Assembly: GCF_003050835.1 (NCBI RefSeq)
Contig: NZ_QAOJ01000015.1
Span: 1-64,000, forward strand
Reading direction: 5' to 3'
DNA length: 64,000 nt
From: Pseudomonas sp. GV071
GTDB taxonomy: Bacteria; Pseudomonadota; Gammaproteobacteria; Pseudomonadales; Pseudomonadaceae
Position numbers and translations under genes: made by a program. This document shows, piece by piece, positions 9,287 to 13,580 of this stretch. The notes under the pieces were generated by a model. It made no database searches. It worked only from the letters and a program-made list of their open reading frames with translations, and was not told the DNA's origin. Each line of letters begins with the position of its first letter. Within the stretch, counting starts at the first letter, position 1.

Positions 9287-9357
9287 TGAGGAGAGGCTTT
9301 AGCCTCGATGCTTTTATAAGTGCCTCGATCTATTGAGGCTGAGCCTCTCCCACAAGC
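9287..9357. repeat. divergent REP-like inverted pair
   Basis: Two facing hairpin units, GGAGAGGCTTTAGCCTCGA and its inverted partner ending GAGCCTCTCCCAC, separated by about 25 bases. The stem bases differ from the main REP class of the window but the pattern is the same. Confidence 0.7.
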
Positions 9358-9443
9358 GCTCGCTGAACGGAACAGCGAGACATAACCTGTAACATTCCAG
9401 GCGAATAGTGATCGGGGCATCCACCTCATGGACGTCCCCGCCA

Positions 9444-10361
9444 ATGAATGCCCCCTCCTACCCCGCCGATGTCTCGATCGCAGCAGACGCCAAGCCCAAG
9501 TTGAATTTCAAGAACAGCAAAGCCACTACCCTGGTGTTTTTCACGGTGCTGGTTCTGGGTCTGATCTACAGCGCCTACAGCCTGTTTCACGATGTCGATC
9601 AAGCCGGTACGGTGGTCACCACCTGGACGCCCTTTCTGCTGCTGGGCGTGGCCCTGCTGATTGCCCTCGGCTTCGAATTCGTCAACGGCCTGCACGACAC
9701 CGCCAACGCCGTGGCCACGGTGATCTACACCCACTCGTTGCCGCCGCAGTTCGCGGTGGTCTGGTCGGGCTGCTTCAACTTTCTCGGTGTGCTGGTTTCC
9801 AGTGGTGCAGTGGCATTCGGCATCATCGCCCTGCTGCCGGTGGAACTGATTCTGCAGGTCGGCTCCTCGGCCGGCTTTGCCATGGTCTTTGCCCTGTTGA
9901 TTGCCGCCATCATCTGGAACCTCGGCACTTGGGCGCTGGGCTTGCCGGCCTCGTCCTCGCACACCTTGATCGGCTCGATCATCGGCGTCGGCATCGCCAA
10001 TGCACTGATGCATGGCCGTGACGGCACAAGTGGCGTGGACTGGGTGCAGGCGACCAAGGTCGGCTGGAAACGCATCGTGGTGACGGTCGGCGAGAAGATC
10101 GGCAAGAGCCACCTCACCTACGCTCAAGGCGCTTCGGCAGAACTGGTGGCGATGGTCACCATCGGCGCCGCCGACATGTATGGCCTGCCAGTGTCGACCA
10201 CCCACGTACTCTCTTCCGGCGTCGCCGGCACCATGGCAGCCAACGGCTCCGGCCTGCAGATGCGCACCATCCGCAACCTGCTGATGGCCTGGGTGCTGAC
10301 CTTACCGATCGCGATTCTGTTGTCGGGCAGCCTGTACTGGCTGTTCACCCAGCTGTTTTAA
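9444..10361 (+). CDS. Pit-type inorganic phosphate transporter with a central in-frame deletion
   Basis: 305 residues against about 490-540 for PitA relatives. The N-terminal half is intact (NGLHDTANAVATVIYT at 81-96, SSSHTLIGSIIG near 170), as is the C-terminal part (GEKIGKSHLTYAQG, PVSTTHVLSSGVAGT). At residues about 203-208 the sequence jumps from the ATKVG of the first half directly to WKRIVVTVGEK, which in E. coli PitA lies over 200 residues further on. The central helices, the cytoplasmic loop and the second NDGQKG signature are missing. The frame is kept, so a protein can be made, but normal phosphate transport is doubtful. ATG at 9444 is assumed; no strong ribosome site is present. 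Confidence 0.75.
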   Translation: MNAPSYPADVSIAADAKPKLNFKNSKATTLVFFTVLVLGLIYSAYSLFHDVDQAGTVVTTWTPFLLLGVALLIALGFEFVNGLHDTANAVATVIYTHSLPPQFAVVWSGCFNFLGVLVSSGAVAFGIIALLPVELILQVGSSAGFAMVFALLIAAIIWNLGTWALGLPASSSHTLIGSIIGVGIANALMHGRDGTSGVDWVQATKVGWKRIVVTVGEKIGKSHLTYAQGASAELVAMVTIGAADMYGLPVSTTHVLSSGVAGTMAANGSGLQMRTIRNLLMAWVLTLPIAILLSGSLYWLFTQLF

Positions 10362-10381
10362 CCCGCGCTCCCCCGCGTATT

Positions 10382-10408
10382 GCCGCCCCTTTCGGGCGGC
10401 TTTTTTTT
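10382..10408 (+). terminator. rho-independent terminator of the pit-like gene
   Basis: GCCGCCC, five-base loop, GGGCGGC, followed by eight T. It ends transcription of the transporter gene before the convergent cysC. Confidence 0.9.
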
Positions 10409-10457
10409 GCTGAAAAACTCGCGGCTGAATCCATACCTCCAAAGGTCGCAGTTCCCG

Positions 10458-10481
10458 GTAGGAGCGGCTTCAGCCGCGATG
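10458..10481. repeat. REP element overlapping the end of cysC
   Basis: Single unit with core GGAGCGGCTTCAGCCGCGA. On the minus strand it supplies the last codons (His-Arg-Gly) and the TGA stop of cysC. Confidence 0.85.
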
Positions 10482-11081
10482 TTTTTGATCCAACACCAAC
10501 GCCAACAACCGATTGGTGGCGGTCTGGATATCCACCTGTTCGGTGTCGATTTCGCAATCGGCATCCAGGGGAGCCTCGTAGGGGCTGTCGAGGCCGGTGA
10601 AGTGGCGCAGTTTTCCGTCGAGGGCGGCGCGGTACAGACCTTTGGGATCACGGCGGGCGCAGGCGGCGAAAGAGGTGCTGATGTAGGCGCAGTGGAATTC
10701 GCCCTCTGCGAACAATGCCCTGGCAGCGTCGCGGTCGGCGCGAAACGGTGAGATGGCAGAGACGATAACGATCAGCCCGGCATCCACCATCAGCCGTGCC
10801 ACTTCAGCCATGCGCCGGATGTTTTCCTTGCGGCTCTGCGGGCTCATACACAGGTCGCGGCATAGGCCGTTGCGCACGTTGTCGCCGTCGAGCAGAAAGG
10901 TGTGCAGGCCGCGGCCGTTGAGCTGAATTTCCAGCTCGTTGGCCAAAGTCGACTTGCCGGCGCCCGACAAACCGGTCAGCCAGATGCAGCCAGGCCGCTG
11001 ACGTTTTATCCGGGCGCGCGACTGCGGCGCCAGCGCCAGGCTGTATGGGCGTATATCCACGTTGGCCTGACGCTCATTCAT
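10470..11081 (-). CDS. cysC: adenylylsulfate (APS) kinase
   Basis: 203 residues. P-loop GLSGAGKST at 37-45, DGDNVRNGLCRDL and the Arg-rich FRADRDAAR segment are the conserved APS-kinase motifs. It phosphorylates APS to PAPS, the universal sulfate donor. The start at 11081 overlaps the upstream sulfotransferase end by 8 bases, so both are translated from one message. It is not joined to a CysN domain. The C-terminus (QKHRG then stop) is encoded by a REP element. Confidence 0.9.
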   Translation of the reverse strand: MNERQANVDIRPYSLALAPQSRARIKRQRPGCIWLTGLSGAGKSTLANELEIQLNGRGLHTFLLDGDNVRNGLCRDLCMSPQSRKENIRRMAEVARLMVDAGLIVIVSAISPFRADRDAARALFAEGEFHCAYISTSFAACARRDPKGLYRAALDGKLRHFTGLDSPYEAPLDADCEIDTEQVDIQTATNRLLALVLDQKHRG

Positions 11082-11775
11082 AACCGAGCAACTCGTAGTC
11101 ACGGGCATACACCTGGCGCACCAAGTGACGGGTGCGCGCATTGCTGATGTCACGCGCACTGCCTTCGTGACGCTTGGAGGCATTCAGGTGCGGTAGGTCG
11201 CGGCTGATCTTGAGCAGCTCGCAGAGGGTGAAGAAGTCGTGGCGCAGGGTTTCCTGGCGGCCGATAAAATCCATCGCCAGGCTGCCGCTGGAGTCCAGCA
11301 GAAAGTCGGTCTGCGGGGCGAAGTGCAACTGGCGGCGCACGTTCTCGGCATGCAGCCAGCCACGCACGAATTCGTCAAAACTGGCGTAGCGGCTGACCAA
11401 CTGATTGGCCGCCTGATCACGGCGTAACGGCACGTTGTTGCGCAGGTAGGTATAGGCCGAATACGTACGCTCCAGCGGGTCGCGCACGAAGGTGAACTTG
11501 AATGCTTCAGCGTAAGCCTGGGGGAATTGCTCCTGGTACCAGTACAGCGGCAGATGGCCCGGTCGCCAGGTGTCGAACAACGCCTTGCACACACTGCTGC
11601 CAGCACACTTGGGCACATGCACGAACAAGCCGGCCACGCGCTCGAAGGCCTCGGGATAGTGAATATTGGCAGTCATCGCCTTATTCACCGTATGACGGTC
11701 CACCACCGACAAGCGCCCTAACAGGAACGAGCGTTGAGCCTTGGGCATCAGTTTCCACAGCACGCGTTGCAACAT
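11074..11775 (-). CDS. sulfotransferase (Sulfotransfer_2-type)
   Basis: 233 residues. PAPS 5'-phosphosulfate loop HVPKCAGSS at 53-61 and 3'-phosphate motif FVRDPLERTYSAY from residue 96 are both present, as in carbohydrate sulfotransferases and heparan 2-O-sulfotransferase relatives. No signal peptide, so it should act in the cytoplasm. ATG at 11775 is preferred; an upstream TTG frame lacks support. Overlap with cysC gives a compact donor-synthesis plus transfer unit. The acceptor, perhaps a surface glycan, is unknown. Confidence 0.8.
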   Translation of the reverse strand: MLQRVLWKLMPKAQRSFLLGRLSVVDRHTVNKAMTANIHYPEAFERVAGLFVHVPKCAGSSVCKALFDTWRPGHLPLYWYQEQFPQAYAEAFKFTFVRDPLERTYSAYTYLRNNVPLRRDQAANQLVSRYASFDEFVRGWLHAENVRRQLHFAPQTDFLLDSSGSLAMDFIGRQETLRHDFFTLCELLKISRDLPHLNASKRHEGSARDISNARTRHLVRQVYARDYELLGYE

Positions 11776-12035
11776 TGACCACTTCCATTTCCGAACGAGC
11801 CGCTGTTTGGCAGCGAGGTGGCGGTAACGTAGCAATGCTGCGAACGGAAATTATGCGGTCTTGGTAAAGAGCGTAAGCGGCTGGATACACAACGCTGAGG
11901 CGCGCAGCGGCAGTGCCCATGACGGCTGTGCGCGGCTTTGTGTGAGTGCGCTTACAAACGTCGTGGCGCCGACGACCGGACAGGGCGCAGAACGGCTGTC
12001 GGGTTTCGCCGTTGGCTCAACCCAACCTGCGCCAA

Positions 12036-12083: not shown

Positions 12084-13580
12084 TTAGCTATTGCTTGGGA
12101 AAGCGAACTGAGCGGCTTCGTGGGAAGCGCGTTGTGGCCAACGTTGGGTGATGGCTTTGCGGCGGGTGTAGAAGCGTACGCCGTCCGGGCCGTAGGCGTG
12201 CAGGTCGCCGAACAGCGAGCGTTTCCAGCCGCCGAAGCTGTGGTAGGCAACCGGTACCGGCAACGGTACGTTTACGCCAACCATGCCCACTTCGATCTCG
12301 TCGCAGAACAGACGCGCGGCTTCACCGTCACGGGTGAAGATGCAGGTGCCATTGCCGTATTCGTGATCGTTGATCAGCTGCATGGCTTCTTCCAGGCTGC
12401 CGACGCGGACGATGCACAGAACCGGGCCGAAGATCTCGTCGGTGTAGATGGTCATGTCAGTTTTGACGTGGTCAAACAGGCTGCCGCCGAGGAAGAAGCC
12501 GTCTTCGTTGCCGGCCACTTTCAGGTTGCGACCATCGACCAGCAGCTTGGCGCCAGCAGCAACGCCGGCGTCGATGTAGCCAGCCACTTTGTCACGCGCC
12601 GCAGCGGTAACCAGCGGGCCCATGTCCAGGCCGCAGGAAGTGCCGGCACCGATTTTCAGGGCCTGGATTTGCGGCACGATCTTGTCGACCAGCGCGTCGG
12701 CGATCTGGTCGCCTACACACACGGCTACCGAGATGGCCATGCAGCGCTCGCCGCAGGAACCGTAAGCGGCACCCATCAGGGCGCTGACGGCGTTGTCCAG
12801 GTCGGCATCGGGCATCAGCACGGCGTGGTTTTTCGCGCCGCCCAGAGCCTGAACGCGTTTGCCGCGCTTGGTGCCTTCGGAGTAGATGTATTCGGCAATC
12901 GGGGTCGAACCCACGAAGCTCAGGGCTTTGACTTCCGGCGCTTCGATCAGCGCGTCTACCGCTTCCTTGTCGCCGTGCACCACGTTCAGCACGCCTTTTG
13001 GCAAGCCGGCCTGGTTCAGCAGTTCAGCGATATACAGGGTGGAGCTCGGGTCACGCTCGGACGGCTTGAGGATGAAGCAGTTGCCGCAGACGATGGCCAG
13101 CGGGTACATCCACAACGGCACCATGGCCGGGAAGTTGAACGGGGTAATACCCGCCACCACGCCCACCGGCTGGAAGTCGCTCCAGGCGTCGATGTTCGGG
13201 CCCACGTTACGGCTGTATTCGCCTTTCAGAATTTCCGGGGCGGCGCAGGCGTACTCGACGTTCTCGATACCGCGCTTCAGTTCACCGGCGGCGTCTTCCA
13301 GGGTTTTGCCGTGCTCTTCGCTGATCATCTGCGAGATCTTGGCTTCGTTCTGTTCCAGCAGTTGCTTGAAGCGGAACATCACCTGGGCGCGTTTGGCCGG
13401 TGGGGTGTTGCGCCAGGCCGGGAACGCGGCTTTGCCGGCGTCGATAGCTTTCTGCACGGTGGCGCGGCTGGCCAACGGCACTTTGTGGATGGCTTCACCG
13501 GTGGACGGGTTGTACACGTCGGCAGTACGACCGGTGTCGGTCACGAACTCGCCGTTGATCAAATGCTGGATGGTGCTCAT
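12084..13580 (-). CDS. bauC: (methyl)malonate-semialdehyde dehydrogenase (CoA-acylating)
   Basis: 498 residues, full length for MmsA/IolA-type aldehyde dehydrogenases. NAD-binding region FVGSTPIAEYIY and catalytic Cys in GSCGERCMA are present. In the beta-alanine pathway it converts malonate semialdehyde to acetyl-CoA; the same family oxidises methylmalonate semialdehyde in valine breakdown. Its position after bauA and the cupin gene favours the beta-alanine role, hence bauC rather than mmsA. A 62-base gap separates it from the cupin gene. Terminator downstream. Confidence 0.85.
   Translation of the reverse strand: MSTIQHLINGEFVTDTGRTADVYNPSTGEAIHKVPLASRATVQKAIDAGKAAFPAWRNTPPAKRAQVMFRFKQLLEQNEAKISQMISEEHGKTLEDAAGELKRGIENVEYACAAPEILKGEYSRNVGPNIDAWSDFQPVGVVAGITPFNFPAMVPLWMYPLAIVCGNCFILKPSERDPSSTLYIAELLNQAGLPKGVLNVVHGDKEAVDALIEAPEVKALSFVGSTPIAEYIYSEGTKRGKRVQALGGAKNHAVLMPDADLDNAVSALMGAAYGSCGERCMAISVAVCVGDQIADALVDKIVPQIQALKIGAGTSCGLDMGPLVTAAARDKVAGYIDAGVAAGAKLLVDGRNLKVAGNEDGFFLGGSLFDHVKTDMTIYTDEIFGPVLCIVRVGSLEEAMQLINDHEYGNGTCIFTRDGEAARLFCDEIEVGMVGVNVPLPVPVAYHSFGGWKRSLFGDLHAYGPDGVRFYTRRKAITQRWPQRASHEAAQFAFPSNS

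Follow-up and report, generated by a model that had tools for sequence, protein, structure and literature searches.

A Pit-family phosphate transporter gene of Pseudomonas sp. GV071 lacks its middle in frame, probably through a recent microhomology deletion

Transporters of the Pit family are defined by two copies of a signature sequence, one in each repeat of the protein (PMC3126765). In human PiT2, that report identifies H502 and D506 in the C-terminal signature as critical for transport, and describes a truncated PiT2 without TM5-6 and the large loop that keeps both signatures and transports at a very low level. The PiT2 truncations (delta R254-V483 and delta L183-V483) are internal deletions that leave both ends of the protein in place, as does the bacterial deletion described here. 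They retain both signatures, however, with transport that is either full or very low (PMC3126765), whereas the deletion described here takes the second signature.

Pit genes can be lost in bacteria. PitA is reported to be dispensable in Mycobacterium smegmatis (PMC2797804); in E. coli, tellurite enters through PitA and loss of the protein raises tellurite tolerance (PMC3501828). When Pseudomonas aeruginosa PAO1 was evolved on colistin, 7 of 19 mutants carried changes in pitA, and the growth of engineered pitA mutants was not reduced, according to the same report (PMC10569645). In that work, as here, the Pit gene of a Pseudomonas is hit; in contrast, those pitA (PA4292) alleles arose in laboratory evolution and include an 11-base deletion, whereas the one in question here is large and in frame (PMC10569645).

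Our window is a stretch of 64,000 nucleotides from Pseudomonas sp. GV071 (contig NZ_QAOJ01000015.1, positions 1 to 64,000), and the features of its pit gene are collected in Table 1. The reading frame is uninterrupted from the ATG, or from an alternative GTG at 9408, to the stop codon, with no internal stops or frameshifts; the nearest relatives begin where the ATG sits. The PHO4 profile (PF01384) matches the predicted protein with 175.7 bits (cut-off 33.7) in two stretches, leaving the middle of the profile (1-350 in full) uncovered, whereas the intact protein at locus L034 spans positions 1-350 in one piece. Across the join, the translation runs from DWVQATKVG directly into WKRIVVTVGEKIG. 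The preliminary description of this DNA had noted a Pit transporter missing its middle in frame, joined at about residue 206 (base 10059) with over 200 residues gone; the two-piece profile match and the comparison with relatives bear it out on each of these points.

Table 1 Features of the shortened pit gene and its surroundings in the window.
Feature	Coordinates	Strand	Details
pit gene with in-frame internal deletion	9444..10361	+	305 codons + stop
Retained N-terminal PHO4 half	9684..10058	+	PF01384 profile 1-117; first signature VNGLHDTANAVAT, GLPASSSHT
Deletion junction	10053..10065	+	ACCAAGGTCGGCT
Retained C-terminal PHO4 end	10059..10325	+	PF01384 profile 261-350; GEKIG, GLPVSTTHV
Terminator-like inverted repeat, then T run, 3' of pit	10380..10408	+	by eye

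Relative to loci L034, L035 and L036, the window gene is short of exactly 696 bases, or 232 codons, in frame. L034 and L035, from records titled Pseudomonas viridiflava with 83-84% DNA identity to the window, encode Pit proteins of 537 residues each, against 305 in the window; the short protein is 89-90% identical to those of L035 and L034 over its first 207 residues and 93-95% identical over its last 102. We compared the spacing of the two halves across 110 loci (L001 and L005-L113, leaving out L002-L004, which are the window itself), a set in which seven are PitA-type paralogues: L001, from the strain itself, and L028-L033. In all 110, the spacing exceeds that of the window by 678-735 bases; at L001, the difference is 705 bases (235 residues). 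Intact Pseudomonas orthologues of about 537 residues are like the window gene in having PPK2 upstream (in L034 and L035) and a similar motif before the ATG, but they keep the 232 internal residues, HGSNDGQKG included, that the window gene has lost. We take PA4292 to be the orthologue of this gene.

The loss falls on parts of the protein that define the family. By alignment, the first signature is kept (N81-T92, NGLHDTANAVAT) and the second, HGSNDGQKG, is gone. By a crude hydropathy measure, three hydrophobic stretches of L034 (205-234, 273-296 and 416-447) are missing from the short protein; a weaker one at 464-484 falls under the threshold in the short protein as well. Without the second signature and these three hydrophobic segments, the short protein should not transport phosphate, and because three is an odd number, its C-terminal part would be inverted. 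Among solved structures, comparison by sequence found a single relative, the phosphate transporter 6l85, and its match has the two-repeat layout as well. AlphaFold gave a mean pLDDT of 47.5 and a pTM of 0.34 for the short protein, and 48.8 and 0.37 for intact L034 as a control, from 24 and 23 aligned sequences, respectively; with the control modelled as badly as the short protein, neither model supports a conclusion.

Upstream of pit lie a CorA-family gene, whose best NCBIfam match is ZntB at a score under that model's cut-off, and a PPK2 gene; the latter had been named as the neighbor in the preliminary description and is confirmed, and nothing connects it to the deletion. Near the start, a motif is kept (CTGTAACAT...GAATAGTGA in the window, with variants in L034 and L035), and a variant of the terminator-like repeat occurs in L034, as judged by eye. 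The intergenic region upstream of pit is 171 bases in the window, compared with about 490 in L034. This could have meant the loss of a promoter, a reading that we rejected: L034 and L035 have palindrome-like repeat units in this region, and the start-proximal motif is retained.

The flanks show some further features. The ppk2-pit gaps of L034 (3540-3900) and L035 (3600-3890) are full of repeated palindrome-like units, CCCGTCATCC...GCGGGGATCCAG; the gap in the window is shorter and has a different inverted repeat at about 9290-9350. On the 3' side, GTAGGAGCGGCTTCAGCCGCGATG (10455-10490) resembles what we take to be a REP-type palindrome of Pseudomonas. Genes for an APS kinase (cysC-like) and a Sulfotransfer_2 protein lie at 10470-11835, between pit and a dehydrogenase-like gene at 12084-13580. 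Neither was seen in any of 80 loci from named genomes within the flanks that were fetched, L034 has only about 0.5 kb at this place, and the window's genome matches the sulfotransferase family just once. The pair looks like a lineage-specific insertion of sulfate-activation and sulfation genes.

The junction itself carries a short repeat. L035 has ACCAAGGTCGGCT at the left end of the stretch that the window lacks and ACCATGGTCGGCT at the right end; the two agree at 12 of 13 bases, the last 8 of them as an exact run. This resemblance lets the breakpoint slide within about 10052-10065. The repeat goes back to the protein motifs TKVGY and TMVGW. The nearest relative, L034, has ACAAAGGTCGGTT at the left end, and its ends share just 6 bases as an exact run. 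Among the 110 comparison genes, 9 have an exact 8-base run near the deletion sites and the commonest run is 4, a count that includes L029, which was matched at a wrong left site (spacing 1224). Of the in-frame junctions of 300-1200 bases that are possible in the L035 gene alone, 241,650 in total, 228 have microhomology of at least 8 bases, which makes it unlikely that the repeat lies at the junction by chance. The repeat is what would be expected as the footprint of a slippage or microhomology deletion when L035 stands in for the ancestor; with L034 and its 6 exact bases, the fit is weaker. The junction also shares an exact 15-mer, GGTCGGCTGGAAACG, with the strain's intact paralogue on contig C3. 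Recombination with that paralogue can be set aside: beyond the junction, identity of the C-terminal part is 93-95% to L035 and L034 and only 64% to the paralogue.

The short form is rare. A degenerate pattern of the junction matched 1 of 398 same-genus genomes, which is the window's own. With a DNA query that spans the junction, 202 of the 398 genomes gave matches at E <= 1e-30, and among the matches listed only the window's own genome covered the query in full. With an N-terminal protein query, matches were found in 161 of 239 genomes; among the 150 matches listed, all 149 besides the window lie in open frames that measure 535-737 codons, where that of the window measures 322. The preliminary description had allowed for close relatives with the same short gene; no short pit was seen in other Pseudomonas among the 110 loci, in the 398-genome pattern search or among the orthologue matches listed.

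To place the deletion in time, we compared 104 sequences over the retained part, excluding the first 60 codons and seven paralogues. The window gene has no changes at sites that are invariant in all the others, as is also true of 88 of the other 103. Its tip length is 0.018; those of L035 and L034 are 0.017 and less than 0.001, respectively. The dN/dS ratio is 0.04 to L034 and 0.054 to L035; it is 0.014 for L034 versus L035 and 0.06-0.10 for most deeper pairs. Together, these values indicate that constraint has acted on the retained parts for almost their entire history. The lack of decay argues that the deletion is recent, although the constraint would also agree with ongoing function.

We consider it very probable that this is a recent loss-of-function deletion, specific to the strain or lineage, that arose by slippage or microhomology in a dispensable Pit transporter. 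Slippage during replication, or joining mediated by microhomology, between a pair of imperfect direct repeats of 13 bases would have removed 696 bases, codons 207-438 in L034 numbering, from an otherwise normal gene for a low-affinity Pit-family phosphate transporter, with the frame preserved through chance. What remains would encode a membrane protein of 305 residues that lacks half of its substrate site (the second Pit signature) along with three hydrophobic segments, and this protein would probably be degraded. The genome encodes a second, intact Pit protein of 490 residues (C3:126359-127705, the paralogue L001) and has two matches over the PstB model cut-off, that is, PstB-type ATPases; phosphate uptake should therefore not depend on the short gene, and would continue via the intact paralogue and Pst. 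With a derived loss that is unique, intact relatives and no decay, the gene has, judging by its sequence, the makings of a recent pseudogene with a presumably inactive product. Of the origins that the preliminary description had offered, a recent deletion is the one favored by the repeat at the junction, the long genes of relatives, the lack of decay and the absence of the middle elsewhere in the assembly.

It is unlikely, by comparison, that the deletion is an artefact of assembly or sequencing, in which case the gene in the cell would be intact, at about 1614 bases, and the draft would have dropped 696 of them. The draft genome is a single assembly of 26 contigs and the exact junction is unique among the 398 genomes, as such an error would be. 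Yet the missing middle has no copy anywhere in the 26 contigs (5.72 Mb), with partial matches only in the C3 paralogue; the contig is unbroken through the junction, and genome completeness is 99.99%. The join also sits at a short repeat typical of true deletions. Assemblers work with overlap words of more than 13 bases, so the repeat at the pit junction would not be collapsed, and a false join at a repeat of 8-13 bases would be an unusual assembler failure.

Very improbably, the 305-residue protein is a functional shortened Pit that moves phosphate, for instance as a dimer, or acts as a binding partner or regulator. The retained frame, start, pre-start motif and terminator-like sequence are consistent with such a role, as is the lack of decay, and human PiT2 without its middle still transports at a low level (PMC3126765). 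That truncated PiT2, however, had both signatures and the window protein is without the second, which in human PiT2 holds residues reported as critical (PMC3126765); among the matches listed, the long form is present in 148 of 148 other genomes, and the predicted inversion of the C-terminal part weighs against function as well. Less probable still is the specific arrangement in which the protein is expressed and active as a single-signature dimer, with the first repeats of two oppositely oriented chains forming the site; if true, this would be an arrangement such as an ancestral half-size transporter might have had. That the gene is an old pseudogene, long inactive after an ancient deletion, is scarcely credible: part of it is gone and its junction is absent from relatives, but it has acquired no stops or frameshifts and no changes at otherwise invariant sites, and its tip length (0.018) is close to that of L035 (0.017).

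The short pit does not represent a new kind of transporter, and the case is an ordinary one. Pressures on Pit genes include metal oxyanions, arsenate and membrane-active antibiotics, some of them those of the studies introduced above. The loss of pit could have been neutral or, conceivably, selected; in the latter event, it would make one natural example to set next to those evolved in the laboratory. Outside annotation, the significance of the finding is small. Automatic pipelines would probably annotate the short gene as an inorganic phosphate transporter despite the missing half of its active site. The locus cleanly illustrates how a microhomology deletion that stays in frame would escape the notice of gene callers, and it also illustrates the redundancy of Pit transporters in Pseudomonas.
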